From: Aromatoleum anaerobium
GTDB taxonomy: Bacteria > Pseudomonadota > Gammaproteobacteria > Burkholderiales > Rhodocyclaceae
Length of the DNA: 64,000 nt
Direction: 5' to 3'
NCBI RefSeq assembly: GCF_012910705.2
Contig: NZ_WTVG02000037.1
Span: 124,001-188,000 of the forward strand
Shown: piece after piece, positions 29,010-47,431 of the stretch
Layout of the letters: every line of letters begins with the position of its first letter
How positions within the stretch are numbered: the first letter of the stretch is position 1
Notes under the pieces: model-generated
What the model was told of the DNA's origin: nothing
Seen by the model: the letters and a program-made list of their open reading frames with translations, nothing else
The model's database searches: none
Position numbers and translations under genes: made by a program

Positions 29010-29672
29010 ATGCAGCCGTGTGTAGTCAGCAACGTTGACGATCCGGCCCTGGTGGAGATGCGGCGTAGCCAGTTCGTGAAAGCGGCGAGCGAGCTGTTCG
29101 CTCGCAAGGGTTACCACCGGACCACCATCAGGGACATCACCCAGAGTGCGGGCCTGAGCACCGGCCTGATCTATTCGTACGTGCGGGCCAAGGAGGACGT
29201 GCTGTTCCTCGTGCTCGAGAACGTCCTGAAGTCCTACCTCGCCGAGATCCCGCGGGCGCTCGAAGCCGGCGGCGGGCCGGTCGAGCGGTTCTGCGCGACG
29301 GTGCGCGCCTATTGCGAAGTGATCGGCGACAAGCCCGACGCGACGCAGCTCGCCTATCGCGAGACCAAGTCGCTCGGCGCCGATTACCAGACGGTGATCA
29401 AGAACATGGAGCTGGAGACGAACCAACTGATCATCGATCGGATCGAGGAGTGCATCGACGCCGGCTATTTCCGCCCGGTCAACGTCGAACTCTTGACCTA
29501 CCGCATCGTGCTGCTCGCGCACGGCTGGGCGCTGAAGGCGTGGCGGCTGCAGCAATTCACGACGCTCGACGAGTACATCGACGAGGGGCTGGACCTTTTT
29601 CTCAACGCGCTGCTGACGCCCGAAGGCTGGGCGCACTACCGCGAAGTTCGCGAGGGGAGGGGGGTCCAATGA
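29010..29672 (+). CDS. TetR-family transcriptional regulator
   Basis: A 220-aa protein, first gene of the alicyclic operon. The N-terminal helix-turn-helix is FVKAASELFARKGYHRTT, IRDITQSAGLSTGLIYSYV, RAKEDVLF. The remainder is the helical ligand domain typical of acyl-CoA-sensing TetR proteins. The ATG at 29010 has GGAGGAG 8 bp upstream, so it is preferred over 28992. The stop overlaps the livH start (ATGA, 29669-29672), so the repressor is produced with the transporter. This is consistent with negative autoregulation that is relieved by a CoA-thioester intermediate, but the ligand is not known. Confidence 0.87.
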   Translation: MQPCVVSNVDDPALVEMRRSQFVKAASELFARKGYHRTTIRDITQSAGLSTGLIYSYVRAKEDVLFLVLENVLKSYLAEIPRALEAGGGPVERFCATVRAYCEVIGDKPDATQLAYRETKSLGADYQTVIKNMELETNQLIIDRIEECIDAGYFRPVNVELLTYRIVLLAHGWALKAWRLQQFTTLDEYIDEGLDLFLNALLTPEGWAHYREVREGRGVQ

Positions 29673-30520
29673 TCGGCCTGCAGATACTCAACGGCCTCGT
29701 CTACGGCTCGCTGCTGATGATCGTCGCGTCGGGCCTCGTGCTGATCTACGGCCTGCGCCGCGTCGTGAATTTCGCGCACGGGTCGCTGTTCATGCTCGGC
29801 GCGTACATCGCGTACGCCGCGGCGCAGCAGTTCGGTTTCTGGGTCGGGCTCGTCGCCGCGGTCTCGGTGCTCGCCGCGGTGGGGTTCTGCCTCGACCGTT
29901 TCGGCTTCCGCCTGCTGCAGGACCGCGATCCGCTGACGGTGATGCTCGTGACCTTCGGGCTGCTGCTGGTGTTCGAGGACGTCGTGCAGTCGGTGTGGGG
30001 CAAGCAGAGCTATTCGCTCGCCGCGCCCGAGTCGCTCGCGGGCACCGTGGAGCTCTTCGGCTCGCCGTTCCCGGTCTATCGACTCGTCATCGTCGCGGCG
30101 GGTCTCGCGGTGGCCGCCGCGCTCGTCGGCTGGCTGCGCCACAGCCGTGTTGGCCTCTTCATCCGCGGCGCGAGCACCGATCCGGTGACGACCGCGATGC
30201 AGGGCGTCAATACCGACCGGCTCTCCGGCGGCGTCGTCGCGGTCGGCGCGGCGCTCGCAGGCCTCGCCGGCGTGGTCTCGGGCCCGTTCCTGTCGCTTTC
30301 GCCGACGATGGGCAGCGACATCCTGATCGATTCCTTCGTCGTCGTCGTCATCGGCGGGCTCGGGAGCTTCGCCGGCGCGTTCGTCGCCGCGATGATCCTC
30401 GGTCAGGTCCAGGCGCTCGGCGCCGTCTATCTCCCCGACCTCGCGGCGCTGCTGCCGTTCGCGCTGATGACCGCCGTGCTGGTCTGGCGTCCGTCGGGCC
30501 TTTCCGGGAGCCGCACATGA
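29669..30520 (+). CDS. livH: LIV-type ABC transporter permease (LivH)
   Basis: A 283-aa inner-membrane permease of the branched-chain amino-acid/amide family with about eight helices. Signature stretches are LNGLVYGSLLMIVASGLVLIYG, RRVVNFAHGSLFMLGAY and VIGGLGSFAGAFVAAMILGQ. It pairs with LivM to form the channel. Adjacent genes overlap by four bases on both sides, giving the order TetR-livH-livM-livG-livF-binding protein. By operon context the cargo is likely an alicyclic or aromatic carboxylate rather than leucine. Confidence 0.92.
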   Translation: MIGLQILNGLVYGSLLMIVASGLVLIYGLRRVVNFAHGSLFMLGAYIAYAAAQQFGFWVGLVAAVSVLAAVGFCLDRFGFRLLQDRDPLTVMLVTFGLLLVFEDVVQSVWGKQSYSLAAPESLAGTVELFGSPFPVYRLVIVAAGLAVAAALVGWLRHSRVGLFIRGASTDPVTTAMQGVNTDRLSGGVVAVGAALAGLAGVVSGPFLSLSPTMGSDILIDSFVVVVIGGLGSFAGAFVAAMILGQVQALGAVYLPDLAALLPFALMTAVLVWRPSGLSGSRT

Positions 30521-31536
30521 GCGCCACCCTCACTGCCCCTGCGCTGGACGGTGCGCAGGTCAAGCGCGCGTCGCGTCTGCCGCGCCTCTTGAGCCTGACC
30601 TCGGTCGCGGTCGCCGTCGGGCTCGCGGTCAGCATGCTCGTCGAATCGAACACGGTGATGTCGCTGTTGACGCAGGCCGTCATCTACGCGGTGTTCGCGC
30701 TCGGCCTCGGCTTCCTGCTGAAGCAGAACGGCATGGTCAGCTTCGGCCACGCGCTGTTCTTCGGCCTGTCCGGCTACCTCGTCGGCGTCGGGGCGAGCCT
30801 CACCGGGTCGGTCGGCACGGTCGTCGTGCTGACGATCGCGGGAATCGGGTTCTTCGCGTTCGCCCTGGCGCTCGTCATCGTGCGGGTGCCGGGCATCGCG
30901 TTCGGCATGCTGACGCTGGCGATCGGGCAGAGCTTCTACGTGCTCGTATCGAAGTCGCGCGGCGTCACCGGCGGCGCCGACGGCATGAGCATCGAGTTTC
31001 CGCCGCGCGTGTTCGGACTCGAGATCGGCGCGTTCCAGGACCCGGCCAGCATGTTCCTGATCTCATGGCTCGCGTTGGTCGCGCTGGTGCTCGCGCTGAG
31101 TCTGCTGCTGGGCACGCGCTTCGGCCCGCTGACCGAGGCGATCCGCGAGAACGAGGAGCGCGTGCGCTTCATCGGCTTCCGCACGCTGCTGCCGCGCGCG
31201 GTGGTGTTCGCGATCTCGGCGATGGTTACCGCGGTCGGCGGCGCGCTGTCGGCGCTCTACACCGGCTTCGTGTCGCCCGAGTCGCTGCACTGGTCGGTGT
31301 CCGGCACCGTGCTGATCATGGTCGTGCTCGGCGGCAGCCGCACGCTGTGGGGCCCGGCGGTCGGGGCGGTCGTCTATTACCTCTTCCGCGACTACGTCGG
31401 CGAGCACACGACGCACTGGATGGGAATTTTCGGCGTGAGTCTGATCGCGGTCATCGTGTTGTGGCCGGCCGGCATCGCCGGCGGCGTGATGCACGCCGTC
31501 GAACGGATCAAGCGCGGTTCGGGGAGGCACGCATGA
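30517..31536 (+). CDS. livM: LIV-type ABC transporter permease (LivM)
   Basis: A 339-aa permease with a short polar N-terminal tail and about nine or ten helices. Conserved sequences are LLTQAVIYAVFALGLGFLLKQ, NGMVSFGHALFFGLSGYLVG, SRGVTGGADGM and the cytoplasmic EAA-like loop AIRENEERVRFIGF. ATG 30517 overlaps the livH stop. Only in-frame start consistent with the overlap pattern of this operon. It forms the heterodimeric pore with LivH. Confidence 0.92.
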   Translation: MSATLTAPALDGAQVKRASRLPRLLSLTSVAVAVGLAVSMLVESNTVMSLLTQAVIYAVFALGLGFLLKQNGMVSFGHALFFGLSGYLVGVGASLTGSVGTVVVLTIAGIGFFAFALALVIVRVPGIAFGMLTLAIGQSFYVLVSKSRGVTGGADGMSIEFPPRVFGLEIGAFQDPASMFLISWLALVALVLALSLLLGTRFGPLTEAIRENEERVRFIGFRTLLPRAVVFAISAMVTAVGGALSALYTGFVSPESLHWSVSGTVLIMVVLGGSRTLWGPAVGAVVYYLFRDYVGEHTTHWMGIFGVSLIAVIVLWPAGIAGGVMHAVERIKRGSGRHA

Positions 31537-32243
31537 CCATGACCTACGCACTCGAAGCGAAGGGGCTGTCCGTGCGCTACGGCGGCGTGACCGCGAACGA
31601 CGGCGTGTCGATGCGCATCGCGCCGGGCGAGATCCGCGGCCTGATCGGCCCGAACGGCGCCGGCAAGTCGACGTTCATCGACGCGCTGTCGGGCCGGCGC
31701 GCGACCGCGGCAGGCAGCGTGCATCTGGCGGGCCGCGACATCACCGCGCTCGGCGTCGTCGAGCGACGCTTGCTGGGCCTGTCGCGCTCTTTCCAGCGCA
31801 CGAGCATCTTCCCCGGCATGCGCATCGGCGCGCAGATGGAACTCGCCGCATCGAAGATCCCGGACGCCGATGCCGACGAGGTGATGCGCGAACTCGGCCT
31901 CGACCGCTTCGCCGATCGCCACGCGAACGAGATCGGCTACGGCGACCAGCGCCGGCTCGACATCGCGCTCGCGCTCGTCGGCCGTCCGAGCGTGCTGCTG
32001 CTCGACGAGCCGATGGCGGGACTGTCGATCGAGGAGTCGATGAAGCTCGCCCGGCACCTGCGCGAGCTCGCGCGCCACTGGGGCGTGTCGGTGCTGCTCG
32101 TCGAGCACGACATGGAAGTCGTCTTCGGCATCTCGGACAGCATCACCGTGCTCGAGACCGGCAAATTGCTCGCGGAAGGCGCGCCGGCGGAGATCCGCGC
32201 GCATCCGAAGGTCCGCGAGGCTTACCTGGGGAGCGCAGCATGA
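31533..32243 (+). CDS. livG: LIV-type ABC transporter ATPase (LivG)
   Basis: A 236-aa ATP-binding subunit. Walker A is GPNGAGKST (about residues 40-48), the Q-loop region is SRSFQRTSIFPGM, the signature is the LivG-style EIGYGDQRRLDIALAL instead of LSGGQ, Walker B is VLLLDEPMAGL, and the H-loop is LLVEHDMEVVF. The start overlaps livM and the stop overlaps livF. It acts with LivF at the cytoplasmic side of the membrane. Confidence 0.93.
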   Translation: MTMTYALEAKGLSVRYGGVTANDGVSMRIAPGEIRGLIGPNGAGKSTFIDALSGRRATAAGSVHLAGRDITALGVVERRLLGLSRSFQRTSIFPGMRIGAQMELAASKIPDADADEVMRELGLDRFADRHANEIGYGDQRRLDIALALVGRPSVLLLDEPMAGLSIEESMKLARHLRELARHWGVSVLLVEHDMEVVFGISDSITVLETGKLLAEGAPAEIRAHPKVREAYLGSAA

Positions 32244-32938
32244 TCCCGCTGCTGAATCTCGATGCGGTGAACGCCTACTACGGCGCCGCGCACGTGCTGC
32301 ACGACGTGACGCTGTCGGTCTGCCCGGGCGAGCGCGTCGCGCTCGTCGGGCGCAACGGCGTCGGCAAGACGACCGTCGTCAATTCGATCCTGAACCTCGC
32401 GTCGCTGCGCGGCGGCACGCTGAAGTTCAACGGCGTCGTGCAACACGGCCTGCGCACCTACGGCGCGGCGCGCGCGGGGATCTCGGTCGTGCCGCAGGGC
32501 CGGCGGATCATCCCGAACCTGACGATCGAGGAGAACCTGCTGCTCGGCGGCGCGGTGAAGCGGCCCGGTCCGTGGAATCTCGCGAGCATCTACGAGCTGT
32601 TCCCGATCCTGCAGGAGCGACGCAATACGCCGGGCACGGCGCTGTCGGGCGGCCAGCAGCAGATGCTCGCGATCGGCCGCGCGCTGATGGCCAACCCACA
32701 GCTCCTAGTGCTCGACGAGCCGAGCGAGGGCCTCGCGCCGGTCATCGTCGACCAGCTCGCCGACATCTTCAACCGGCTCGCCAACGCCGGCACGGCGCTG
32801 CTGCTGATCGAGCAGAACCTGAGCCTCATTACGCGCGTCGCCAGGCGGTTCTACGTCATGGCGAAGGGCTCGATCATCGAAGAAGGCGCACTCGAAGGCC
32901 TCGACATCGCGCAGTTGCACAAACACATCGTCGTTTGA
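32240..32938 (+). CDS. livF: LIV-type ABC transporter ATPase (LivF)
   Basis: A 232-aa second ATPase. Walker A GRNGVGKTT, the family block VPQGRRIIPNLTIEENL, the signature LSGGQQQMLAIGRAL, Walker B LLVLDEPSEGLAP and the H-loop equivalent LLIEQNLSL are all present; as in other LivF proteins the His of the H-loop is replaced (EQN). It overlaps livG by four bases and is followed after 21 bp by the binding-protein gene. Confidence 0.93.
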   Translation: MIPLLNLDAVNAYYGAAHVLHDVTLSVCPGERVALVGRNGVGKTTVVNSILNLASLRGGTLKFNGVVQHGLRTYGAARAGISVVPQGRRIIPNLTIEENLLLGGAVKRPGPWNLASIYELFPILQERRNTPGTALSGGQQQMLAIGRALMANPQLLVLDEPSEGLAPVIVDQLADIFNRLANAGTALLLIEQNLSLITRVARRFYVMAKGSIIEEGALEGLDIAQLHKHIVV

Positions 32939-32959: not shown

Positions 32960-34147
32960 ATGAAAACACGCAGAATCACGAACCTCCTCGCCGCCGCGGT
33001 GCTCGCGGTCGCATCCGGCGCGAGCCTCGCCCAGGCGAAGGAGCCGATCCGCATCGGCATGGTCACCTCGCAGTCGGGCGGCTTCACCGCGCAGGGCGAG
33101 GATTCGCTGCGCGGCATGCAGTTCGCGGTCGACGAGGCGAACGCCTCGGGGGGCGTCGCCGGCCGTCGTATCGAAGTGCAGATCGGCGACGACGAGAGCA
33201 CGCCGGAAGGGGGGCGCCGCGTCGCCGAGAAGTTCGCCCGCAGCGGCTACAACCTGCTTGTCGGCCCGATCGCGTCGTCGATCAGCCTCGCGCTCGGGCA
33301 GAACCTGCAACGCTGGGACGCGCTGTACGTGAGCACCTTGAGCAAGTCAGACCGCATCACCGGGGATTCCTGCAACATGCGTATGTTCCAGGCGAACCAT
33401 TCAGATGCGATGGATCTCGCGATCGTGCAGCCGTGGTTGAAGGACAACGCGAAGGAAAAGCGCTTCGCGATCCTCGCCAACGACTACATCTGGGGCCGCG
33501 ACTCGGCCGAATCCTTCACGAAGGCCGCGCAGAAGCTCGGCAAAGAGGTCGAGCTGTCGGTGTTCGCGCCGATTGGCACGAAGGACTTCGCGCCCTACAT
33601 CGCGCAGCTGAAGAATTCCGGCGCCGAGGCCGTGTGGGTCGCGCTCGTCGGTCGCGATCTCATCGCGTTCGCGAAGCAGGCTGCGGAGTTCGGGCTGACG
33701 ACGTCGAAACGCATCATCGGCCATGCCTACATCATGAGCTTCGTCGTCAAGGCGACCGACTCGGCCACCGACGGCGTCTGGGGTGTCCTGAACTACGCGC
33801 CGGAGATCGACACGCCGCGCAACAAGGCGCTCGTTGCTGCGTGGCGCAAGAAGTTCGGTCGCGATCCGAGCGAGAACGAGGTCGCCGGCTACAGCGGCAT
33901 CCAGGTGATCGTGCAGGGCGTCGAGAAGGCAGACAGCGTCAAGCCGACTGCGGTGGCCTCCGCGCTCAGCGGCGCGACGCTCGATACCGTCTGGGGCCCG
34001 GCCGTGATGCGCGCCGAAGACCACCAGCTCGTGAAGCCGAACTACGTCGGCCGCGTCAAACGCGTCGGCGGTGAGCTGCGACCGGTTATCGAGACGGCGT
34101 TCGAAGCATCGATCGCGACGCCCGCACCGACGACCTGCAAACTCTGA
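32960..34147 (+). CDS. LIV-type ABC transporter substrate-binding protein
   Basis: A 395-aa periplasmic binding protein. Residues 1-26 are a signal peptide (basic MKTRR, hydrophobic core, SLAQAK cleavage region). The mature part has the type I fold: IRIGMVTSQSGGFTAQGEDSLRGM (quoted in two parts), VDEANASGGVAGRRIEVQI, DDESTPEGGRRVAEK. It is the dedicated receptor of the complete LIV system encoded directly upstream. The ligand is probably the cyclic carboxylic acid degraded by the downstream enzymes. Confidence 0.9.
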   Translation: MKTRRITNLLAAAVLAVASGASLAQAKEPIRIGMVTSQSGGFTAQGEDSLRGMQFAVDEANASGGVAGRRIEVQIGDDESTPEGGRRVAEKFARSGYNLLVGPIASSISLALGQNLQRWDALYVSTLSKSDRITGDSCNMRMFQANHSDAMDLAIVQPWLKDNAKEKRFAILANDYIWGRDSAESFTKAAQKLGKEVELSVFAPIGTKDFAPYIAQLKNSGAEAVWVALVGRDLIAFAKQAAEFGLTTSKRIIGHAYIMSFVVKATDSATDGVWGVLNYAPEIDTPRNKALVAAWRKKFGRDPSENEVAGYSGIQVIVQGVEKADSVKPTAVASALSGATLDTVWGPAVMRAEDHQLVKPNYVGRVKRVGGELRPVIETAFEASIATPAPTTCKL

Positions 34148-34159: not shown

Positions 34160-34942
34160 ATGTCGAAGCGTGTGTTGCTCACCGGCGCGAGCCGGGGAAT
34201 CGGCCGGGCGACCTGCCTGCGCCTCGCCCGTGAGGGCGCCGTGATCGCCGCGTGCGCCTCGGCGCACGGCGACGAGCTCGCGGCAGTCGTCGAAGAGGCC
34301 GCGCGGGCGGGCGGGCGCGTCGTGCCGCTGCTCGGCGACCTCGCCGATCCGGCGATGCCGGCGCGGCTCGTCGGAGAGGCGGTCGCCGCGCTCGGCGGGC
34401 TCGATGCCGTCGTCAGCAACGCCGGCGTGTCGCGCCCGTCGGCGCTGGCCGCGACGGCGCTCGAGGACTGGGAATTCCTGTTCGGCGTCAATGCGCGCGC
34501 GCCGTGGCTGCTCGCGAAGGCGGCCCATCCGGCGCTGCGCGCGAGCCGCGGCGCGTTCGTCGCCGTCGCGTCGATGTCCGGCGTGCAGCCTTACCCGGGC
34601 ATGGGCGCGTACAGCCCGAGCAAGGCGGCGCTGCTGATGACGATGCGCGTGCTCGCTCAGGAATGGGCCGCCGACGGCATCCGGGTGAATGCCGTGTCGC
34701 CCGGCCTGATCCACACGCCACTGACCGCGCGCGTCTATGCCGACGCCGAGGTCCGCACGGGGCGCGAAGAGTTGATCCCGCTGCACCGCATCGGTGACCC
34801 GGCCGAGCACATCGCCGGCATCGTCGCCTTCCTGCTCGGACCCGATGCCGCCTACATGACCGGCCAGAACCTGCTGGCCGACGGCGGTCTGCTCGACACC
34901 GTCCAGGGCCTGATCCCAGGCCGTCCCGCTACGGAGCGCTAA
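34160..34942 (+). CDS. short-chain dehydrogenase/reductase (SDR) no. 1 of the alicyclic operon
   Basis: A 260-aa classical SDR. The NAD(P) motif is LTGASRGIGRATC (residues 6-18), followed by SNAGVS, the catalytic Ser in VASMSG and the YSPSK motif (Tyr-x-x-x-Lys); the C-terminus has MTGQNLLADGG. Nearest types are 3-oxoacyl reductase/2-deoxy-D-gluconate-dehydrogenase-like enzymes with mixed substrates. In the operon it would oxidise a hydroxyl on the ring or a side chain. It is not the BadH-like enzyme, which is encoded at 37371, so its presence suggests a hydroxylated substrate or an extra oxidation step. Confidence 0.85.
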   Translation: MSKRVLLTGASRGIGRATCLRLAREGAVIAACASAHGDELAAVVEEAARAGGRVVPLLGDLADPAMPARLVGEAVAALGGLDAVVSNAGVSRPSALAATALEDWEFLFGVNARAPWLLAKAAHPALRASRGAFVAVASMSGVQPYPGMGAYSPSKAALLMTMRVLAQEWAADGIRVNAVSPGLIHTPLTARVYADAEVRTGREELIPLHRIGDPAEHIAGIVAFLLGPDAAYMTGQNLLADGGLLDTVQGLIPGRPATER

Positions 34943-34946: not shown

Positions 34947-36563
34947 ATGACGATCCGCATGAATCCCTCGCGGGAGGCCGTTGCACGCCACTATGAGACC
35001 GGCCACTGGCAGTCGCGCTCGCTCGGCATGCTGATCGCCGCGAGCTGCGAACGCCACGCTGACAAGACCGTCGTCGCGGACGCGGCTGGCCGTTCGATCA
35101 CGTACCGCGAGCTCGAGGACCTCGCCTCGCGCCTTGCGGCGCACCTCGCGGCGAGCGGCGTCGGCGCGGGCGACGTCGTGACGATGCACCTTCCGAACTG
35201 GTGGCAGACGGTGGTCGTGACCTATACGACCTTCAAGCTCGGCGCGGTCGTCAATCCGCTGCCGCCGACCTACGGCTGGAAGGACCTCGCGTTCGTCATG
35301 AACAAGTGCGGTGCGAAGGCGATCGTCGTGCCGGGGCGCTTCCGCAGCACGGACTACACCGAGCACCTCGATCGCATCCGCGACGCGCTCGCGGTGAGGC
35401 CGGCGATCGTCGTCATCGGCGAGGGCAACGTCGCGCTGGGCACATCGTTCGACGACGCGGTGGCCGGGCCGCCGCTCGCCGAGGCCCGCTACGCCGCCGC
35501 CGACGAGCCGTCGCTCGTGCTCTTTACGTCGGGCTCGGAATCGAAGCCGAAGGGCGTCGTGCATACGCACAACACCGCGATCTATGGCGAGCGGGCGCTG
35601 GCCGAGACGCTGCGGCTCACCGACCGCGACCTCTGCTTCATGGCCTCGCCCGTGTCGCATACCAGCGGCTTCATGCACGGCATCCTGATGACGCTGATGC
35701 TCGGCTCGTCGGTGTCGCTGCTCGACGTGTTCCACGGCGACGTCGCCGCGGCGCAGATGGCCGCGAGCCGCGCGACCTGGACGATGGGCGCGACGCCGTT
35801 CCTCGGCGACGTCGTCGAGGCGATGGAGAAGAGCGGCCGGCGTCTGCCGGATCTGCGCTACTTCCTGTGCGGCGGCGCGCCGATCCCGGAAGTCGTCGTG
35901 CGCCGCGCGCTCGACGCCGGCGTGCGCGTGCTCAGCATCTACGGCTCGACCGAGAGCCCGCCGCATACCGTGACGTGGCCCGACGACCCGGTCGAGGCCG
36001 CGTGGCAGGCCGACGGCCGCGCGCTGCCGGGCATCGAGGTGCGCGCGGTCGACGAGGCCGGCAACGCCGTCGCGCCGGGCGAGGAGGGCGAGCAGTGCTC
36101 CCGCGGGCCGAACACCTTCATCGGCTATCTCGGCGAGCCCGAGCTCACCGCGGCCGCGCTCGACATGGAGGGCTGGTACCGCTCGGGCGACCTCGCGCGC
36201 GTCGGCCCCGACGGCTCGGTGCGGATCGTCGGCCGCATCAAGGACATGATCATCCGCGGTGGCCAGAACATCTCGGCCCGCGAGGTCGAGGACATCCTGC
36301 TCGAGCACCCGGCCTGCCAGTCGGTGTCGGTCGTCGGCATCCCCCACCCGCGCCTCGGCGAGACCTGCGCTGCGGTCGTCGTCTGCCACCCCGGCCAGCG
36401 GCTCGGGTTCGACGAGATGAAGGCCTTCCTCATCGAACGCGGCGTCGCCCGTTTCAAGCTCCCCGAGAAGCTCGTGCTGCGCGACGCGGTGCCGGTGACG
36501 CCGAGCGGGAAGATCCAGAAATTCAAGCTGCGTCAGGAACTTAAAGACCTCATGGAGTCGTGA
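34947..36563 (+). CDS. acyl-CoA synthetase (cyclohexanecarboxylate-CoA ligase type, AliA-like)
   Basis: A 538-aa acyl-adenylate enzyme. The ATP loop is the variant FTSGSESKPKGVVHTHN (about residue 195). Further motifs: YGSTESPPHT, MEGWYRSGDLARVGPDGSV, the hinge GRIKDMIIRGGQNIS, and the C-terminal Lys in TPSGKIQKF. The region LPNWWQTVVVTYTTFKLGAV resembles AliA/BadA-like ligases for cyclic acids. It would form the CoA thioester that enters beta-oxidation by the following genes. It starts 4 bp after the SDR stop. Substrate is inferred from its BadH- and BadI-like neighbours; other medium-chain or aromatic acids are possible. Confidence 0.83.
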   Translation: MTIRMNPSREAVARHYETGHWQSRSLGMLIAASCERHADKTVVADAAGRSITYRELEDLASRLAAHLAASGVGAGDVVTMHLPNWWQTVVVTYTTFKLGAVVNPLPPTYGWKDLAFVMNKCGAKAIVVPGRFRSTDYTEHLDRIRDALAVRPAIVVIGEGNVALGTSFDDAVAGPPLAEARYAAADEPSLVLFTSGSESKPKGVVHTHNTAIYGERALAETLRLTDRDLCFMASPVSHTSGFMHGILMTLMLGSSVSLLDVFHGDVAAAQMAASRATWTMGATPFLGDVVEAMEKSGRRLPDLRYFLCGGAPIPEVVVRRALDAGVRVLSIYGSTESPPHTVTWPDDPVEAAWQADGRALPGIEVRAVDEAGNAVAPGEEGEQCSRGPNTFIGYLGEPELTAAALDMEGWYRSGDLARVGPDGSVRIVGRIKDMIIRGGQNISAREVEDILLEHPACQSVSVVGIPHPRLGETCAAVVVCHPGQRLGFDEMKAFLIERGVARFKLPEKLVLRDAVPVTPSGKIQKFKLRQELKDLMES

Positions 36564-36564: not shown

Positions 36565-37323
36565 ATGTTCAAAGTCGAAACCTTCGGCCGCGTCGTGCGC
36601 ATCACGATGCAACGCGCGCCGGTCAATGCCCTCAACAACGAATTCATCGCCGGCCTCGACCGTGTGCTCGACGATGTCGAAGGCCGCAAGGACGTCACGG
36701 TCGTGCATCTTCGCAGCTCTCAGCGCGTGTTCTGCGCCGGCGCCGACCTCGCGCAGGTCGAAACCCGCTTCGCGCTGGACGACGGCGCGAACATCATGGT
36801 GCGCGACATCCGCGAGTTCCACCGGCTGTTCGACCGCATCGAGCACTTGCCCTGCGTGACGCTAGCCGAGATCGGTGGCACCGCGTTCGGCGGCGGCTTC
36901 GAGCTGGCGCTCGCGTGCGACCTGCGGGTCGCCGCCGACGAGGCGAAGCTCGGCCTGCCGGAAGCGCGCCTCGGGCTGATCCCCGGCGCTGGCGGCACGC
37001 AGCGATTGACGCGCTTGTGCGGCCCCGGTACCGCCGGGCGAATCATCCTCGCGTGCGACATCGTCGATGGCGCGGAAGCCTGCCGGCTCGGCATGGTGCA
37101 GTGGTCCGTGCCCGCGGCACGTCTTGTCGCCGAGGCCGAAGCGCTTGCCGAGCGCATCGGCAGCCTGTCGGCGGCCTCCCTTCTCGTCTCGAAGCGCTGC
37201 ATCGCGCGCGTCGCCCCGCTTTCGCGCACCGGCTACGAAGGCGAGCTCCAGGGCACGCACGGCCTGATGGCCCTCGAAGACACCCGTTCGCGCGTAAAGG
37301 CCTTTTTCGCTCAGCGGCGCTGA
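36565..37323 (+). CDS. enoyl-CoA hydratase (crotonase family)
   Basis: A 252-aa crotonase. The oxyanion-hole segments are SSQRVFCAGADLAQ and EIGGTAFGGGFELALACD. Both Glu residues used by hydratases are in place, in GGGFE (about residue 112) and in LPEARLGLIPGAGGTQRL (about 132). It can therefore hydrate an enoyl-CoA such as cyclohex-1-ene-1-carboxyl-CoA (BadK role). It starts one base after the ligase stop and is followed by the BadH-like SDR, the next enzyme in the pathway order. Confidence 0.87.
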   Translation: MFKVETFGRVVRITMQRAPVNALNNEFIAGLDRVLDDVEGRKDVTVVHLRSSQRVFCAGADLAQVETRFALDDGANIMVRDIREFHRLFDRIEHLPCVTLAEIGGTAFGGGFELALACDLRVAADEAKLGLPEARLGLIPGAGGTQRLTRLCGPGTAGRIILACDIVDGAEACRLGMVQWSVPAARLVAEAEALAERIGSLSAASLLVSKRCIARVAPLSRTGYEGELQGTHGLMALEDTRSRVKAFFAQRR

Positions 37324-39845: not shown

Positions 39846-40631
39846 ATGCAATACGAAGACGTCCTTTTCGAGATCAGCGATGCCGCAGCGATCATCACGA
39901 TCAACCGCCCCGACCGCCTCAATTCCTTCCGCGCCCGCACGATCGAGGAGCTGATCCACGCGTTCAAGCGCGCTTGGGCGTCGCGCGACGTCGCCGCGGT
40001 GATCCTGACCGCTGCCGGAAACCGCGCCTTCTGCGTCGGTGGCGACCAGAAGATCTTCAACGAAACTGGCAGCTATGGCACCAGCGAGAACGGTCTGTGG
40101 GAGATCGACGAGCTGCACACGGTGATCCGCAACATCCCGAAGCCGGTCATCGCCGCGATCAACGGCCACGCGATCGGCGGCGGCCACGTGATCCACGTGC
40201 TGTGCGACGTCACGATCGCGGCCGAACACGCGAAGTTCGGCCAAGCGGGGCCCCGCGTTGCGTCGTTCGATGCCGGCTGGGGCGCCGCCTACCTAGCGCG
40301 CACGATCGGCGAGAAGCGTGCGCGCGAAATCTGGTTCTTCTGCCGCCAATACACCGCGCAGCAGGCGCTCGACTGGGGCCTCGTCAATAAGGTCGTGCCG
40401 GGCGAGCAGCTCCTCATTGAAGCGAAGGCGTGGGCGAAGGATGCGGCGGCGATGAGCCCGACCGCGCTGAAGGCGCTGAAGTACGGCTTCAACGCCGACA
40501 GCGCGCAGATCTTCGGCGGCGTGAAGATGGCCGCCGTGTCGCTGGAGCTCTTGGGCGGCACCGAGGAGAGCGCCGAAGGCAAGCAGGCTTTCGTCGACAA
40601 GCGTCCGCCGAACTTCGCGCAGTTCCGCTGA
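39846..40631 (+). CDS. badI: 2-ketocyclohexanecarboxyl-CoA hydrolase-like crotonase (BadI-like)
   Basis: A 261-aa MenB/BadI-type crotonase. The segment KFGQAGPRVASFDAGWGAAY, then IGEKRAREIWFFCRQYTAQQ and DWGLVNKVVP, is characteristic of this subgroup and not of simple hydratases. FCVGGDQ and NGHAIGGGHVIHVLCD form the oxyanion hole. BadI opens 2-ketocyclohexanecarboxyl-CoA hydrolytically to pimeloyl-CoA. ATG 39846 follows AAGGAGA. A 9-bp hairpin lies just after the stop. Together with the ligase, dehydrogenase, hydratase and BadH-like SDR it completes a ring-opening route. Confidence 0.85.
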   Translation: MQYEDVLFEISDAAAIITINRPDRLNSFRARTIEELIHAFKRAWASRDVAAVILTAAGNRAFCVGGDQKIFNETGSYGTSENGLWEIDELHTVIRNIPKPVIAAINGHAIGGGHVIHVLCDVTIAAEHAKFGQAGPRVASFDAGWGAAYLARTIGEKRAREIWFFCRQYTAQQALDWGLVNKVVPGEQLLIEAKAWAKDAAAMSPTALKALKYGFNADSAQIFGGVKMAAVSLELLGGTEESAEGKQAFVDKRPPNFAQFR

Positions 40632-40710: not shown

Positions 40711-41526
40711 ATGATGAAGATCGAAGGCATGGCTGCGGTCGTGACCGGCGCCGGTTCCGGCCTCGGCGCGGCGACCGCCGGCGCGCTCGCGCGGGCAGGG
40801 GCCCGCGTCGCGCTGTTCGACCTCGACGACGCGGCGGCGGTGGGGGTTGCCGAGCGAACGGGCGGCTTCGCGGTGCGCTGCGACGTTGCCGACGCCGCGA
40901 GCGTCGCCGACGCGCTCGCGGCAGCTGCGGTTCGTCATGGCCCCGCTCGGATCGTCGTGCATTGCGCGGCGATCTCGATCGGCCGCGTGCCGCTCGTCGG
41001 CGGCGATCCGGCCGAACGATTGACGAAATTCGCGCGACAGCTGCGCATCAACCTCGATGGCGCGCTCAACGTACTGAGTCTCGCCGCCGACGCGATGCGC
41101 GCGCTCGCGCCGCTCGACGACGGCGAGCGCGGCGTCGTCGTCAATACCGCGTCGGTCGCCGCGTTCGAGGGGCAGGCGGGCAGCGCTGCGTACTCCGCAT
41201 CGAAAGGCGGCATCGCCGCGCTGACGCTGCCGGCCGCGCGCGAGCTCGCGCCGCTGGGCATCCGCGTCAATGCGATCGCGCCCGGCATCTTCGACACCGC
41301 GATGATCGCCGGCCTGCCGGACTACGTGCGCGACCTCTATCTCGCCGACTGCGTGTTCCCGAAACGCTTCGGCGCGCCCGACGAGTTCGCCGAGTTGGCG
41401 CTCGCGATCGTCGCCAATCGGATGCTCAACGGCGAGGTGATCCGCCTCGACGGCGCGATGCGGCTGCCGGCCGCCGCCGATTTTTTGCACCGCGCGGGCG
41501 TCGTCGCCGCGCCCGACGCGAACTGA
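40711..41526 (+). CDS. SDR of the type II 3-hydroxyacyl-CoA dehydrogenase (HSD10) kind
   Basis: A 271-aa SDR. VTGAGSGLGAATAGALARAG is the cofactor site. NTASVAAFEGQAGSAAYSAS followed by KGGIAALTLPAARELAP, then GIRVNAIAPGIFDTAMI and LNGEVIRLDGAMR, match the 17-beta-HSD10/3-hydroxy-2-methylbutyryl-CoA dehydrogenase group closely. These enzymes oxidise 3-hydroxyacyl-CoA with NAD+. ATG 40711 has AGGAG 6 bp upstream. In the operon it may serve the linear dicarboxyl-CoA formed after ring opening, or a ring-hydroxyl step. Confidence 0.87.
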   Translation: MMKIEGMAAVVTGAGSGLGAATAGALARAGARVALFDLDDAAAVGVAERTGGFAVRCDVADAASVADALAAAAVRHGPARIVVHCAAISIGRVPLVGGDPAERLTKFARQLRINLDGALNVLSLAADAMRALAPLDDGERGVVVNTASVAAFEGQAGSAAYSASKGGIAALTLPAARELAPLGIRVNAIAPGIFDTAMIAGLPDYVRDLYLADCVFPKRFGAPDEFAELALAIVANRMLNGEVIRLDGAMRLPAAADFLHRAGVVAAPDAN

Positions 41527-41564: not shown

Positions 41565-42704
41565 ATGAACAAGTACCTTCTGACCGACGAGCAGCTCGCG
41601 ACCTGGGATGCCGTCCGCAAATTCGCCCAGGAGCGCATCGCGCCGTTCGCGAAAGAGATCGAGGACAGCAACGAATTCCCGCGCGAGATCTTTCGGGAGA
41701 TCGCCGAGCAGGGCTACCTCGGTGCGGCGCAGTCGCCGGACTACGGCGGCGCCGGCTGCGACGCGGTGACGCTGTGCCTGATCCTCGAAGAACTATCGAA
41801 AGCGTCCGGCGCCGTCGGCAACTCGTTCAACACGCACGTGAGCCTCGTCACCGAGCTGATCGGCACGCACGGCACGCCGGCGCAGAAAGACAAGTACCTC
41901 GGTGCGCTGATCGCCGGCCGCAAGTTCGGCGCATTTGGCTTGACCGAGCCGTCAGGCGGCTCGAACGCCGGCGCCCCCCTCACGCGCGCGGTCCCCGACG
42001 GCGGCGACTGGGTGCTCTCCGGGTCGAAAGCCTTCATCACCAACGGACCCATCGCAGACATCTTCGTCGTCACCGCGAAGACGCCCAACGGCGTGTCCGC
42101 GTTCATCGTCGAGCGCGGCATGCCGGGCTCCGAGGTCGGTCCGCCGGACCGGAAGATGGGCATGCACGGTTCGCCGACATCGTCGCTGTACTTCGACGAG
42201 GTGCGCGTGCCGCACGCGAACATGCTCGGCGCCGAAGGCACCGGCTTCAAGAAGTTCGCGCAGGCGCTCGACCGCGGCCGCATCAACGTCGCGTCGCTGA
42301 TCGTCGGCCTCGCGCAGGCCTCCTTTGATGCGGCCGTCGCCTATGCCCGCGAGCGCGAGCAGTTCGGCAGGCCGATCGCCGCATTCCAGGGCGTGCAGTT
42401 CCCGCTCGCGGAGATGGCGACCGACATCGAGGCGTCGCGCCTGCTGGTGCTCAACGGCGCGCGGATGTACGACGCCGGCCTGCCGATCAAGCTCGAATCG
42501 TCGATGGCGAAGTACTTCGCCGCGGAAGCCGCGCTGAAGATCTGCGACACCTCGATCGCGATCCACGGCGGCTACGGCTACTACTGCGACTTCCCGGTCG
42601 AGCGCTACTTCCGCGACGTCAAGTGCTACCACATCGCCGAAGGCACGAGCCAGATCCAGCGGCTCGTGATCGCGCGCGAGACGGTCGGGAGGTATCCGCT
42701 GTGA
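41565..42704 (+). CDS. acyl-CoA dehydrogenase (ring or acyl desaturation)
   Basis: A 379-aa acyl-CoA dehydrogenase: FGLTEPSGGSNAGAP, WVLSGSKAFITNGPIADIFV, REREQFGRPIAAFQGVQFPL, and the C-terminal HIAEGTSQIQRLVIARE, in which the catalytic Glu is present, in contrast to the IaaF-like gene. It likely introduces the first double bond into cyclohexanecarboxyl-CoA, passing electrons to the ETF encoded at 43663-45380. It is preceded by a short GC hairpin (41529-41542). Confidence 0.88.
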   Translation: MNKYLLTDEQLATWDAVRKFAQERIAPFAKEIEDSNEFPREIFREIAEQGYLGAAQSPDYGGAGCDAVTLCLILEELSKASGAVGNSFNTHVSLVTELIGTHGTPAQKDKYLGALIAGRKFGAFGLTEPSGGSNAGAPLTRAVPDGGDWVLSGSKAFITNGPIADIFVVTAKTPNGVSAFIVERGMPGSEVGPPDRKMGMHGSPTSSLYFDEVRVPHANMLGAEGTGFKKFAQALDRGRINVASLIVGLAQASFDAAVAYAREREQFGRPIAAFQGVQFPLAEMATDIEASRLLVLNGARMYDAGLPIKLESSMAKYFAAEAALKICDTSIAIHGGYGYYCDFPVERYFRDVKCYHIAEGTSQIQRLVIARETVGRYPL

Positions 42705-42807: not shown

Positions 42808-43629
42808 ATGCCGTCGCGACCGCTGAAACGGCTGATGGTCCATCTGGACCAGGGCGAGCGCTCCGCCGTCCGACTCGCGCTCGCGGCCTCGCTCGCGTAC
42901 TCGCACGCCGCGCGCCTCATCGGCGTGTTCGGCCAGCGCGCCCAGCCGCAAAGGATCGGCGTCGTCGCGAACTGGCCGAGCCCGGAATACGAGGAAGCTG
43001 CGGCCGACAATCGCCGCGCGTTTGCGGAGGCGACCGAAGGGCTGCCCGACGTCGAGTGGCACGACGTCAACCGGGGCAGCGACGCCGAGCTGCTGCGCCG
43101 TATCACGGATTTCGCGCGCTACGCGGATCTCGCGATCCTTGGCCAGCACGACGAGTCGGCGCGGCCGCTGACGCCGCCGGATCTCGCCGAGGAGGTCGTG
43201 CTCGGCTCCGGACGTCCGGTACTGATCGTGCCCTACGCCGGCAGCTTCGCCGAGGTCGGGCGCCGGCCGCTGATCGCGTGGAATGCGTCGCGCGAATCCG
43301 CACATGCGGTGGGTGACGCGCTGCCGCTGATCGCCGGCTGCGTCGAGGCCTCGGTCGTCTCGCTCGACATGCGCCACGAGCATGCGGACGCCGGCTGCGA
43401 ACGGCTCGCCGAGCACCTCGCGTGCCATGGCATCCGCGCGAACACCGAGGCGCTCGTCGTCGAGGACGTCGGCGTCATGGACGTGCTGCTGAGTCGCGTA
43501 TCCGACGTCGGGGCCGATCTGCTCGTCATGGGCGCGCATGCGCCGACCGCGGTGCCGTTCGTCAGCGCGGGTGCGGGGACCCGGCACATCCTGCGCCACA
43601 TGATCGTGCCGGTGCTGATGTCAAACTGA
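42808..43629 (+). CDS. tandem universal stress protein (UspA family)
   Basis: A 273-aa protein with two Usp folds. The first half starts [20 protein letters not shown] and ends [15 protein letters not shown]; the second starts [17 protein letters not shown] and ends with [20 protein letters not shown], then [15 protein letters not shown]. The G-x-H/G-A-H type nucleotide loop is visible in the second unit. Usp genes are often found within catabolic or anaerobic operons, where they may modulate transporters or stress resistance. The gene lies between the acyl-CoA dehydrogenase and etfB; its specific role is unknown. Confidence 0.85.
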
Positions 43630-43662: not shown

Positions 43663-44412
43663 ATGAAAGTGCTGGTACCGGTGAAACGCGTGGTCGATTA
43701 CAACGTCAAGGTGCGTGTCAAGAGCGACGGCACCGGCGTGGATATCGCGAACGTGAAGATGTCGATGAACCCGTTCGACGAGATCGCCATCGAAGAGGCG
43801 GTCCGTCTGAAGGAAGCAGGGATCGCCACCGAAGTGGTGGCAGTCAGTTGTGGTGTTGCGGCCTGCCAGGAGACGCTGCGCGCGGCGATGGCGATCGGCG
43901 CGGACCGCGGCATCCTCGTCGAGACCGACGTCGAACTGCAGCCGCTGGCCGTCGCGAAGCTCTTGAAGGCGCTGTGCGACAAAGAAGCCCCGCAGCTGGT
44001 GATCTGCGGCAAGCAGGCGATCGACGACGACTCGAACCAGACCGGCCAGATGCTGGCTGCGTTGATGAACTGGCCGCAGGCGACCTTCGCGTCGAAGCTC
44101 GTCGTTGCCGGCGGTGCTGCGAGCGTCACGCGCGAGATCGACGGCGGCCTCGAAACCCTCGAAATCAAGCTGCCGGCGGTCGTCACGACCGACCTGCGCC
44201 TGAACGAGCCCCGCTACGCGACGCTGCCGAACATCATGAAGGCGAAGAAAAAGCCGCTCGACACGGTCAAGCCCGCCGAGCTCGGCGTCGATGTCGCACC
44301 GCGCCTGGCGACGCTGAAAGTCGTCGAACCGGCGAAGAGGAGCGCCGGTGTGCGCGTCGCCGACGTCGCGCAGCTCGTCGACAAGCTCAAGAACGAAGCG
44401 AAGGTGATCTGA
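43663..44412 (+). CDS. etfB: electron transfer flavoprotein beta subunit
   Basis: A 249-aa Etf[39 protein letters not shown] (signature), [31 protein letters not shown]. It has the AMP-binding and EtfA-contact regions of the family, and the ending KLKNEAKVI is typical. With EtfA it shuttles electrons from the acyl-CoA dehydrogenase to the quinone pool through ETF:quinone oxidoreductase (not encoded here). It is followed by etfA after 2 bp. Confidence 0.96.
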
Positions 44413-44414: not shown

Positions 44415-45380
44415 ATGGCGATTCTGGTTATTGCTGAACACGACAACGCGAGCCTGAAGGCCGCGACCCTGAACGCCGTGGCCGCGGCCATCGAGCTCGG
44501 CAAGGCGGCCGGAGGCGAAGTGCATGTCCTCGTCGCGGGCACGAACTGCGCCGCGGCCGCGGCAGAAGCCGCGAAGCTCGCCGGCGTGGCCAAGGTGCGC
44601 GTCGCCGATGCCGCGCACTACGAGGCGCAGACCGCCGAGAACGTCGCGGCGCTCGTCGTCGCATCAGTTGCAGATGAGGCCGGCGACTACTCGCACCTCG
44701 TCGCCCCCGGCACTTCGTACGGCAAGAACGTGACGCCGCGCGTGGCAGCGCTTCTCGACGTCGCGCAAATCTCCGACGTCGTCGCGATCGAAGCGGCCGA
44801 CACTTTCCAGCGCCCGATCTACGCGGGCAACGCACTGGCGACCGTCAAGAGCGCCGATCGCGTGAAAGTGCTGACGGTACGCACGACCGCGTTCGAAGCG
44901 GCCGCAGTGGCCAACGAAGGCACGGCCGCGGTCGAAGCGCTCGCCGCGGGGCCCGACCTGGGGGTGGCGAAGCTCGTCGGGCGCGAGCTGACGAAGAGCG
45001 CGCGGCCCGAACTGGGTGCGGCGAAGATCATCGTCTCCGGCGGCCGGGGCTTGGGCAGCGGCGAGAACTACCACAAGCTGCTGGAACCCTTGGCCGACAA
45101 GCTCGGCGCCGCGCTCGGCGCCTCGCGCGCCGCGGTCGACGCCGGCTTCGCCCCGAACGACTACCAGGTCGGCCAGACCGGCAAGATCGTCGCGCCGCAG
45201 CTCTACATCGCGGTCGGCGTCTCCGGCGCGATCCAGCACCTGGCGGGCATGAAGGACTCGAAGGTCATCGTCGCGATCAACAAGGATCCCGAGGCGCCGA
45301 TCTTCCAGGTCGCCGACTACGGGCTGGTCGGCGATCTGTTCGAGGTCGTGCCGGAGCTGACCGGCGAGCTCTCTGCGTAA
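44415..45380 (+). CDS. etfA: electron transfer flavoprotein alpha subunit
   Basis: A 321-aa EtfA. The C-terminal FAD domain shows [60 protein letters not shown] and [20 protein letters not shown]. The N-terminal part (residues 1-190) is the usual Ala-rich Rossmann-like region. It is the last gene of the alicyclic operon; a possible terminator hairpin with a T-run lies at 45465-45493. Confidence 0.96.
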
Positions 45381-45464
45381 CTGCCCCCGCTACTCGGGCG
45401 TCCTCCGACTTCAGCGGCATTCGTTCCCTCTCCCTTCGTGCCGCCGGAGCTTGTCCGGCTCGAC

Positions 45465-45493
45465 GGCCCACCGCCGCGAGCCGGGCCCTTTTT
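45465..45493 (+). terminator. possible Rho-independent terminator after etfA
   Basis: GGCCC (45465) pairs with GGGCC (45483) across a GC-rich loop and is followed by CTTTTTG. The stem is short and the loop long, so termination strength is doubtful. Confidence 0.35.
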
Positions 45494-45769
45494 GCTTGAG
45501 TTCCCGTCCCGCATAGAGCGGGAGCGCTCGAGTCCGGCCTCCGTTCGCCGGCGTGCGGCAGACGAAGTCGATGCCCGAATTGTTCCATTCCTATCCTTCG
45601 CGCGGCATCCGAGCGTCGCCGTCTCTGTGCACCGCGGAGACAATCAGACGCTCACCGCTCATCGACAAGTTACCTGCAATTCCGGGAGTTGACGCGTCAC
45701 GTCGGCTCCACGTCGGCACGTCCGTCAGATTGTCGGCGACGCTTCCCGACCCCCGCCCCCGAACGTAGC

Positions 45770-45789
45770 AGGATGCACGAACTGTCCTA
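45770..45789. promoter_or_regulatory. second copy of the activator element, AGGATGCACGAACTGTCCTA
   Basis: Matches 19 of 20 bases of the element at 28874-28893. GCAGAATC follows at +61 and CTGAATGAACGT at +76, exactly as in the alicyclic-operon promoter, while the DNA between is not conserved. This indicates shared regulation of the porin gene and the operon. Confidence 0.65.
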
Positions 45790-45830
45790 GTGATGGCCCG
45801 ATTCTGGCCGGCTTTGCGTCCTTCCCCGTC

Positions 45831-45860
45831 GCAGAATCAGTCTCGCTGAATGAACGTGCA
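45831..45860 (+). promoter_or_regulatory. porin promoter core with TetR-like half-site
   Basis: GCAGAATC (45831) and CTGAATGAACGTGCA (45846) match the blocks in front of the 29010 operon. Only the left half of the ACTGAA/TTCAGT dyad is kept, so TetR control may be weaker here. Confidence 0.45.
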
Positions 45861-46039
45861 GTTTGCGCCCGACGCAACCCAAGCACGAGGAGGAGACATC
45901 GCCCGCTGAGCGGCCCGGCCAGGCCAGACATGCGAGCGGCCCGCCCCGGCCGGCTCCGCGCGGACGGCTGCCCGCGGTGCCGCCGCCGAATCCAAAGCAT
46001 TCACCCAAAAAGCCTCACCACACCACCAGGAAGGACACC

Positions 46040-47431
46040 ATGAAGACAGCTCACCGGTTCGCCCGCCGCTCCGCGGGCCTGTTTGCCGCCGTGCTGGCGG
46101 CCTCAGCCGCCCCGGCGTTTGCCGACGAGACCGACAAGGCGCAAATCCGCGAACTCGCAGCGAAGATCGAGGCGTTGCAGGCGCAGCTGAAGGCGATCGT
46201 TGATCAGCAGAACGCTGCCCCGGCCGCGCAGGCTCCATCCGCCGCCGCGGTCGTGACCGAAGGCGCGCTGCCCGGCTCGTTCAAGATGCCGGGGACCGAG
46301 ACGTCGGTGAAGATTGGCGGCTTCGCGGCGCTCGACATTGTCAAGGATTTCACCGGCGGCGGCATGGGCGGCGCGGTTGCGCAGCCGCAGTCGATCGCGT
46401 TCGACGGCTCGCCGAAGTCGGAACGCGACGGGCAGCTGTCGATGACCGCTCGGCGCAGCCGGCTGTACCTGCGCACGCTGACGCCGACGCCGCTCGGCGA
46501 CGTGCTGACGCACATCGAGGGCGACTTCATCGGTAGCGGCGGCAACGAGCTCGTGACGAACTCGTCGTCGCCGCGGCTGCGCCACGCGTACGTCGAGCTC
46601 GGCCCGTGGCTTGCCGGCCAATTCTGGACGAACTTCGCCGACCTCGCGACGTTCCCGGAGACGGTCGATTTCCAGGGCGGCCACGGCATGGCGCAGGCGA
46701 TCCGCCAGCCGCAGCTGCGCTACACGAAGAAGTGGGGCGCGCACGAATTCGCCGCGGCGATCGAGAACCCCGAGGCCGACATCGTCGGCATGTCGGTGTC
46801 GAGCTTCAACCCCGGCGTCGGCCCGGTGCCGACGACGCACGTCGACGAGCTGCCGGACCTGACCGCGCGTTACGCGTTTTCCGGCCACTGGGGCCGCGTC
46901 GCGCTCGGCGGCGTCGCGCGCAAGCTGTCGATCGACAACCGCGGCGCGGGCGCGATCGGCGGCTTCGTCGGCGACGACAGCGTGACTGCGGGCGGGCTGA
47001 TGCTCGCCGGGCGGATCAAGACCGGCGGCAAGGACTCGATCCAGTTCGGCATCGAAGGCGGGCGCGGCCTCGGCCGCTACATCACCGGCGCGCCGATCCC
47101 GACCGCCGCGGTGATGTCGGACGGCAGCCTGAATGCGGTGAAGTCTTGGGGCGCGATGCTCGGCTATCAGCATCACTGGAGCCCGACGTTGCGCTCGAAC
47201 GTCACCTACGGCCAGGTCCGCCTCGACAACCCGCATCCGGCGATGCCGAAGACCGCGGTGAGCCGCGTCGACGCGCTGTTCGTGAACTTGATCTGGCAAC
47301 CGATTCCGCGCGCGCTCGTCGGCATCGAATACGTTCGCGGCGAAGTCGAAAACGACGAGCCGAAGACCGCGACGCTATCCAACAAGGGGCGCGCCGACCG
47401 GTTGGGGGCGACGGTTCAATATCACTTCTAG
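46040..47431 (+). CDS. DcaP-like trimeric outer-membrane porin
   Basis: A 463-aa exported protein. Residues 1-31 are a signal peptide (AAPAFAD cleavage region). Next comes a short coiled coil (IRELAAKIEALQAQLKAIVD), a feature of DcaP porins, then SFKMPGTETSVKIGGFAALD and a beta-barrel ending in ATVQYHF with the terminal Phe needed for outer-membrane insertion. DcaP-type porins admit dicarboxylic and aromatic acids. GGAAGGA lies before the ATG at 46040; the open frame extending to 45863 is not needed. Its promoter shares elements with the alicyclic operon, so it probably brings that substrate across the outer membrane. Confidence 0.87.
   Translation: MKTAHRFARRSAGLFAAVLAASAAPAFADETDKAQIRELAAKIEALQAQLKAIVDQQNAAPAAQAPSAAAVVTEGALPGSFKMPGTETSVKIGGFAALDIVKDFTGGGMGGAVAQPQSIAFDGSPKSERDGQLSMTARRSRLYLRTLTPTPLGDVLTHIEGDFIGSGGNELVTNSSSPRLRHAYVELGPWLAGQFWTNFADLATFPETVDFQGGHGMAQAIRQPQLRYTKKWGAHEFAAAIENPEADIVGMSVSSFNPGVGPVPTTHVDELPDLTARYAFSGHWGRVALGGVARKLSIDNRGAGAIGGFVGDDSVTAGGLMLAGRIKTGGKDSIQFGIEGGRGLGRYITGAPIPTAAVMSDGSLNAVKSWGAMLGYQHHWSPTLRSNVTYGQVRLDNPHPAMPKTAVSRVDALFVNLIWQPIPRALVGIEYVRGEVENDEPKTATLSNKGRADRLGATVQYHF

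Follow-up and report, generated by a model that had tools for sequence, protein, structure and literature searches.

A conserved operon of Aromatoleum anaerobium that may encode a third kind of BadI-type ring-opening module with a one-chain CoA-transferase

We analysed a stretch of 64,000 nucleotides of the Aromatoleum anaerobium genome (hereafter the window; contig 35, positions 124001-188000, of a 4.56-Mb assembly in 40 contigs), in which 17 co-oriented genes of the + strand span 28992-45380, from a TetR-type regulator gene to etfA, and are followed by the gene of a DcaP-type porin. An earlier reading of the sequence, referred to here as the original prediction, had taken these genes for a self-contained pathway from cyclohexanecarboxylate (CHC) to pimeloyl-CoA. 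The best reading of the present results is that the operon encodes a ring-opening module which comes third after the bad-ali genes and the monoterpene mrc genes, and which would act on a substituted or functionalised ring acid. In its broad form, namely that the ring-opening module is of a third type, that its CoA-transferase is functional and that its main substrate is not CHC, irrespective of whether the transferase serves in activation of the substrate, we assign this reading a probability of roughly 0.6. Two neighbouring genes are central to it:

38140..39816, + strand: one-chain class I CoA-transferase-family protein of 558 aa with fused alpha and beta halves and the putative catalytic Glu369 (PF01144)
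39846..40631, + strand: BadI/MenB-type crotonase of the third clade, putative ring-opening hydrolase

The crotonase had been labelled BadI-like, a label that needs qualifying: the MenB model PRK07396 gave 315 bits (cut-off 380) and the BadI model TIGR03210 only 289 (cut-off 468), while the second MenB model, TIGR01929, gave 298 bits (cut-off 343), so that no cut-off was reached. It was 49% identical to the true BadI of the same genome, and the range was 47-52% for further true BadI rows and 45-50% for those of MenB. In the first tree (70 rows), which took 30 of the 37 loci returned by a BadI scan of genome contigs and left out three partial rows and four Amycolatopsis rows that are close to other rows, the window protein fell into a separate clade of 31 labelled rows plus the rows L114 and L115 (support 93/99). 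MenB was the weak sister of this clade (89/80) and BadI stood apart (88/89); in this tree 7 of the 15 BadI rows were below the cut-off, four of the nine MenB rows (L138, L143, L145 and L146) had been labelled without a TIGR01929 score, and MenB was not one clean group, as L087 lay inside it. Since long outgroup branches had been flagged, the tree was rebuilt without the outgroup rows except L121 and with four plasmid homologues added. The window clade then comprised 37 rows (100/99), next to a clade holding MenB (100/99) and one of BadI with mrc-type proteins (93/80); MenB formed a single group here only because L086 and L087, two members of the 37-locus set that lie outside the third clade, were no longer in the counted group. 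Rows L114 (G340:C1:2800622-2801392) and L115 (G524:C29:146987-147757) branch close to the base of this clade and represent another BadI/MenB-like paralogue found in the genus, with 57% identity to the window protein.

The window protein is thus neither BadI nor MenB but belongs to a third clade, whose members come from Pseudomonadota, Myxococcota and Actinomycetota. The BadI-versus-MenB phylogeny, named as a test in the original prediction, therefore gave a mixed answer: the protein is outside MenB, as was expected, but it is also outside BadI and weakly closer to MenB. We take Ser161/Asp163, Tyr97, Tyr258 and the oxyanion glycines (E. coli MenB numbering) to act in MenB catalysis. Gly133, Ser161 and Asp163 were invariant in all 62 labelled rows of the rebuilt tree and Gly86 in 61 of them, and the window protein retains both the Ser/Asp pair and the oxyanion glycines. 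Tyr258 was found in 9/9 MenB and 18/18 BadI or mrc rows, and in none of the window-clade rows (0/8 and 0/27). Tyr97 is missing from BadI too, and the window protein has no tyrosine at either position. No MenD above the cut-off was found in the same genome (best 73 bits versus 244), which makes it unlikely that the protein serves classical menaquinone synthesis; with the missed cut-offs and the separate clade, this led us to reject a MenB function. The intact Ser/Asp pair and the placement in the BadI/MenB group also speak against a scheme with no ring pathway at all, where the crotonase would serve as hydratase in beta-oxidation of a branched linear acid. The operon has another hydratase, and we consider this scheme improbable, even though the acyl-CoA dehydrogenase resembles short-chain acyl-CoA dehydrogenase and acryloyl-CoA reductase and one short-chain dehydrogenase/reductase (SDR 3) is HSD10-like.

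The protein encoded next to the crotonase, which the original prediction had overlooked, combines both halves of a class I CoA-transferase in one chain. The N-terminal half matched PF01144 and, over residues 7-298, GctA (1poi_A, E 1.3e-24), and the profile of the C-terminal half matched GctB (1poi_B) and other beta chains. Glu369 of the beta half belongs to an AE[IT]G motif; it is aligned with the Glu of the SENG motif in AtoA from E. coli and was kept in all six full-length sequences aligned. For Thermosipho CtfB, a passage of PMC12400318 describes an acyl-glutamyl anhydride formed by the catalytic Glu of the signature. The alpha and beta halves and the beta-half catalytic Glu are therefore all present, and class I CoA-transferase activity is predicted. 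A passage of PMC5380842 presents the steroid ring hydrolase IpdAB as a relative of class I CoA-transferases in which Gly replaces the catalytic Glu (Gly57 of the beta chain in RHA1). Because the window protein has retained Glu369, it is more likely to be a working CoA-transferase than a hydrolase.

This comparison bears on the idea that the operon has a second, IpdAB-like ring hydrolase in its one-chain protein and that the substrate is bicyclic. The IpdAB/EchA20 system for the last steroid rings likewise joins a BadI/MenB-like ring hydrolase with a class I CoA-transferase-related protein; according to the same part of PMC5380842, IpdAB acts after EchA20, the only M. tuberculosis EchA that clusters with MenB. 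The window transferase also matched IpdA-type chains (6co6_A, E 2e-8). However, GctA was a far better match (1e-24), the window protein is one chain and conserves the Glu that is Gly in IpdAB, and none of the 18 assigned products was IpdC-like. We regard an IpdAB-like hydrolase as very improbable.

The transferase gene was located immediately upstream of the badI-like gene in nine loci from Betaproteobacteria, other Pseudomonadota and one Myxococcota metagenome-assembled genome (MAG). These are the window, the plasmid pAZKH of Azoarcus sp. KH32C, A. toluolicum (L053), Noviherbaspirillum (L054; partial, assembly gap), a betaproteobacterial MAG (L055), the Myxococcota MAG (L057), a Rhodospirillales MAG (L062), a Marinosulfonomonas MAG (L072) and genome G772 (L052; partial, contig end). 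Six of the 37 loci of the BadI scan carried the fused transferase, and in the first tree the eight transferase-carrying rows formed one clade (99/97). The transferase itself was also used as query. Among 300 genomes at the order level, 98 had some match at E 1e-3, with the window's own protein as the only full-length one; among 297 genomes at the family level, 24 had a match at E 1e-20, and only the window's own protein and that of G504 were full-length (at least 80%); among 398 genomes at the phylum level (E 1e-25), the window's own protein and that of G772, cut by a contig end, were found. A contig scan with transferase patterns gave 28 stretches and none was confirmed; the patterns were limiting here, as the BadI scan did return transferase-carrying loci. 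In Mycobacterium paragordonae a third-clade BadI has an annotated two-chain 3-oxoacid CoA-transferase at a distance of about 1.4 kb; this lies on the opposite strand and had no detectable similarity to the window transferase.

The CHC reading of the operon is not supported by comparison with the rest of the genome. A true BadI is encoded on contig 35 at 244097-244861, about 80 kb from the window's gene, within a canonical bad-ali locus whose products exceed the equivalog cut-offs (bits/cut-off: AliA 986/792, AliB 747/575, BadH 483/431, BadI 520/468). The window counterparts are below the same cut-offs (TIGR03208 428/792, TIGR03207 242/575, TIGR03206 271/431, TIGR03210 289/468). BadI above the TIGR03210 cut-off was present in 16 of 17 genomes of the genus. 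The bad-ali gene set of A. anaerobium is that published for Aromatoleum sp. CIB in a part of PMC9795900 that also counts KH32C and A. toluclasticus among the canonical bad-ali strains and refers to a further badKHI cluster with a presumed role in monoterpene use; no mention of a CoA-transferase cluster of the window type was found in that part. The published BadR operator form CAATNNATTG was absent from the window (0.28 expected by chance) and occurred once in the bad-ali locus, and it appeared once or more in 15 of 200 shuffles of that locus; given these chance levels, the operator contributes little to the argument.

A second, redundant pathway for CHC or cyclopentanecarboxylate with relaxed specificity could nevertheless be considered, as the set of reactions would be identical to that of bad-ali. 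In addition, eight Actinobacterial loci (L074, L075, L076, L078, L080, L082, L084 and L085), in which a BadI relative occurs with a dehydrogenase, a BadH-like SDR and a ligase, resemble the chcpca cluster of Rhodococcus BCP1, which is induced by CHC and cyclopentanecarboxylate alike (passage of PMC5906575). Against this stand the canonical locus in the same genome, the four missed cut-offs, the loss of the Tyr that all BadI rows keep and the presence of a CoA-transferase for which plain pimelyl-CoA has no need. Redundancy is in our view unlikely, and the ring acid of the window operon probably differs from that of the ordinary CHC genes.

The remaining genes are given below in their order along the contig.

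27935..28882, - strand: AraC-family regulator (Pfam HTH_18, HTH_AraC), divergent from the operon and the TetR gene
28992..29672, + strand: TetR-family regulator (Pfam TetR_N, TetR_C_24)
29669..30520, + strand: LivH-type permease (Pfam BPD_transp_2; start set by analogy with KH32C)
30517..31536, + strand: LivM-type permease (Pfam BPD_transp_2)
31533..32243, + strand: LivG-type ATPase (top NCBIfam matches LivG/UrtD, below cut-offs)
32240..32938, + strand: LivF-type ATPase (top NCBIfam matches UrtE/LivF, below cut-offs)
32960..34147, + strand: periplasmic binding protein of the importer (closest solved chain 4ey3_A, E 8e-28)
34160..34942, + strand: SDR 1, FabG-like
34947..36563, + strand: AMP-forming acyl-CoA ligase (PRK06087 545 bits, cut-off 736; AliA model TIGR03208 428, cut-off 792)
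36565..37323, + strand: enoyl-CoA hydratase (PF00378, 152.6 bits)
37371..38117, + strand: SDR 2, BadH-like dehydrogenase (TIGR03206 271 bits, cut-off 431)
40711..41526, + strand: SDR 3, HSD10-like type II 3-hydroxyacyl-CoA dehydrogenase (4o5o_A, E 2e-64; 1u7t_A, E 1e-60)
41565..42704, + strand: acyl-CoA dehydrogenase (AcrC model 373 bits, cut-off 640; AliB model TIGR03207 242, cut-off 575; 5lnx_A, E 3e-98)
42808..43629, + strand: universal stress protein family, Usp (PF00582)
43663..44412, + strand: EtfB (KH32C counterpart annotated EtfB)
44415..45380, + strand: EtfA
46040..47431, + strand: DcaP-family outer-membrane porin (PF19577, E 5e-24; KH32C counterpart annotated DcaP family)

All the genes named in the original prediction, i.e. 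those of the five-component LIV importer (LivH, LivM, LivG, LivF and the binding protein), the ligase, dehydrogenase, hydratase, BadH-like SDR, BadI-like crotonase, EtfBA and porin, were recovered on the + strand. Its list lacked, besides the transferase between the BadH-like and BadI-like genes, SDR 1, SDR 3 and the Usp gene. The TetR and AraC regulators and an organisation different from bad-ali were also borne out, and the family content is consistent with a route in which an acid is taken up, activated with CoA, dehydrogenated, hydrated and oxidised before BadI-type hydrolysis opens the ring, electron-transfer flavoprotein (ETF) being the electron carrier. Intergenic gaps from the TetR gene to etfA range from -4 to 103 bp, and 659 bp separate etfA from the porin gene if the latter starts at ATG 46040. 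A promoter scan of 28800-47700 found no sigma-70-type sites (1.0 expected from shuffles). The AraC-family protein scored 151 bits on the HpaA model, below the cut-off of 275, and has a counterpart at the equivalent position in KH32C (81% identity). The structure 4ey3 is one which we take to belong to a set of binding proteins with aromatic acid ligands; as the match reached only E 8e-28, the importer leaves the substrate unfixed. The 1u7t_A match of SDR 3 is a type II 3-hydroxyacyl-CoA dehydrogenase. HSD10-type enzymes act on alpha-branched 3-hydroxyacyl-CoAs, and 2-hydroxycycloalkane-carboxyl-CoA shares the alpha-branch.

According to the proposed scheme, the porin and the ABC importer would take up a ring-shaped carboxylic acid other than plain CHC, and the ligase would form its CoA thioester. 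The acyl-CoA dehydrogenase, donating electrons to EtfBA, the hydratase and an SDR would then yield a 2-oxo-cycloalkane-carboxyl-CoA, the ring of which would be hydrolysed by the third-clade crotonase to a dicarboxylic mono-CoA ester. The CoA-transferase would be an integral step and could serve best by shifting CoA to the opposite end of an opened chain made unsymmetrical by alkyl, hydroxy or oxo substituents, which would let beta-oxidation begin from the unblocked end. Such a shift would be pointless on symmetrical pimelyl-CoA, and we therefore infer that the ring-opened product is unsymmetrical. A precedent is ThnP of anaerobic naphthalene degradation, which moves CoA between the two carboxyls of a ring diacid (passage of PMC11659651). 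Intramolecular CoA transfer, taken by itself, is a tentative proposal by analogy, and the complete scheme, in which a Tyr-less hydrolase and a one-chain transferase flipping CoA from end to end make up a third kind of hydrolytic pathway for substituted alicyclic acids, is somewhat more tentative still.

Alternatively, the transferase could be the activating enzyme, working alongside the ATP-dependent ligase, with succinyl-CoA or the ring-opened product as the CoA donor for the incoming acid. The kept catalytic Glu is compatible with this, and the closest solved relative by sequence is glutaconate CoA-transferase. A ligase is, however, encoded in the same operon at all five transferase loci where this is visible (the window, KH32C, L053, L055 and L057), and the transferase gene adjoins that of the ring hydrolase, not the ligase; no ligase was found in the other four (L052, L054, L062 and L072), where the sequence is short or broken. 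Activation by intermolecular transfer is nearly as likely as the intramolecular shift, and remains doubtful in its own right.

Several observations weigh against a third type of ring-opening module built around the transferase. The fused transferase was not found in 31 of the 37 BadI-scan loci, some of which are cut by contig ends, and the ring hydrolase can therefore work without it. In the rebuilt tree Sphingomonas JE1 (L161), on a long branch, was placed among the transferase-linked rows (99/95); the 18.8 kb around its BadI gene yielded no fused transferase, and instead only genes with the annotations 'CoA transferase' and CaiB/BaiF-type. The link between transferase and badI is consequently strong and not exclusive. 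No close SDR 2 was present in L057 (38%), L062 (36%) or L052 (34%). The structure prediction for the transferase was poor (pLDDT 55.6, pTM 0.45, from 6 sequences), so the fold assignment derives from sequence comparison. Neither a thiolase nor a second acyl-CoA dehydrogenase is encoded among the 18 + strand genes, for which reason 'self-contained' was too strong a description; the later steps must be supplied from elsewhere in the genome, which has several thiolases. Moreover, ThnP belongs to another CoA-transferase subgroup and lacks the Glu, and both the substrate and the CoA-transfer step, including its direction, are predictions from the genes, as are the individual reactions.

The operon is conserved in relatives. 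All 18 + strand genes are collinear on pAZKH of KH32C with 74-96% identity (some of the queries being over-long open reading frames), including 96% for the BadI-like protein, 94% for the dehydrogenase and 91% for EtfB. In A. toluolicum the order from livM to badI is identical as far as the contig end. At 23 of the 37 loci, a BadH-like SDR with at least 43% identity to SDR 2 is encoded no more than 3 kb from the BadI-like gene. The 3-oxoadipyl-CoA thiolase and 3-hydroxyacyl-CoA dehydrogenase genes downstream in KH32C were dropped as pathway markers, because other genes occupy this place in the window; the orthologue of that thiolase (85%) lies about 130 kb away from the operon in A. anaerobium.

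The module shares with bad-ali of Rhodopseudomonas palustris and Aromatoleum sp. CIB the logic of ligase, acyl-CoA dehydrogenase, hydratase, BadH-type SDR and BadI-type hydrolase. It differs in having TetR and AraC regulators in place of the MarR-type BadR and a BadI outside the BadI clade, and adds its own importer, ETF, porin, two extra SDRs and the CoA-transferase. Like the mrc genes of Castellaniella defragrans, it would be a specialised set of BadK/BadH/BadI paralogues for a substituted ring, but the mrc-type hydrolase groups with BadI, apart from the window clade. KH32C has an mrc-type cluster at 390-395 kb of pAZKH (L157, 384000-402000) with the order MaoC, MaoC, hydratase, hydrolase, SDR, as described for the Castellaniella monoterpene genes in a passage of PMC4109377; its hydrolase row (L108) sits with BadI, and the window-type cluster lies at a different place on the plasmid. 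The KH32C 'BadI' of the monoterpene paper was dropped as an orthologue of the window protein, as its neighbour order fits the mrc cluster, the accession itself not having been matched. The naphthalene-degrading culture N47 has a CoA-transferase and an acyl-CoA dehydrogenase (ThnP/ThnO) in one ring-degradation operon; ThnP is of the Cat1 subgroup according to PMC11659651, whereas the window transferase is Gct-like. On pRHL3 of Rhodococcus jostii RHA1 (L121), a one-chain CoA-transferase (36% identity), an SDR and a BadI-like crotonase (40%) are encoded side by side. That stretch has no annotated Liv-type importer, and the first tree placed its crotonase outside the BadI/MenB/window group. A thiolase, a ligase and a second CoA transferase are also encoded in this more distantly related cluster. 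No description of a window-type cluster was found among the titles and abstracts listed by searches of the open-licence PMC literature.

Elsewhere in the window, neighbouring - strand genes at 12151-24428 include those of an acetone/acetophenone carboxylase-like hydantoinase A/B pair, a 537-aa subunit of the methylmalonyl-CoA-mutase type, an AMP-ligase and a xanthine dehydrogenase-type protein (MoCoBD); they could be involved in ketone or tertiary-acid degradation. Adjacent proteins with POR/DUF6537 and TPP domains, resembling indolepyruvate ferredoxin oxidoreductase, are encoded at 596-6748 on the - strand near a DctM TRAP transporter gene. The + strand gene at 48834-50927 specifies a 3-hydroxyacyl-CoA dehydrogenase that carries an enoyl-CoA hydratase domain at its C-terminus, a domain order opposite to that of FadB/FadJ.

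Oil and plant terpenes contain ring acids, for which BadI-type hydrolysis is a central means of ring opening that needs no oxygen. The module described here would be a new version of this cleavage. Its hydrolase belongs to a clade that is easily mis-assigned, with homologues annotated variously as BadI, MenB, naphthoate synthase or 'enoyl-CoA hydratase-related'. As KH32C holds the window-type set and mrc-type genes on one plasmid and a true BadI on another contig, the three modules can be compared in a single strain, and the CoA-transferase offers a concrete and testable pointer to a substrate that may be unsymmetrical.

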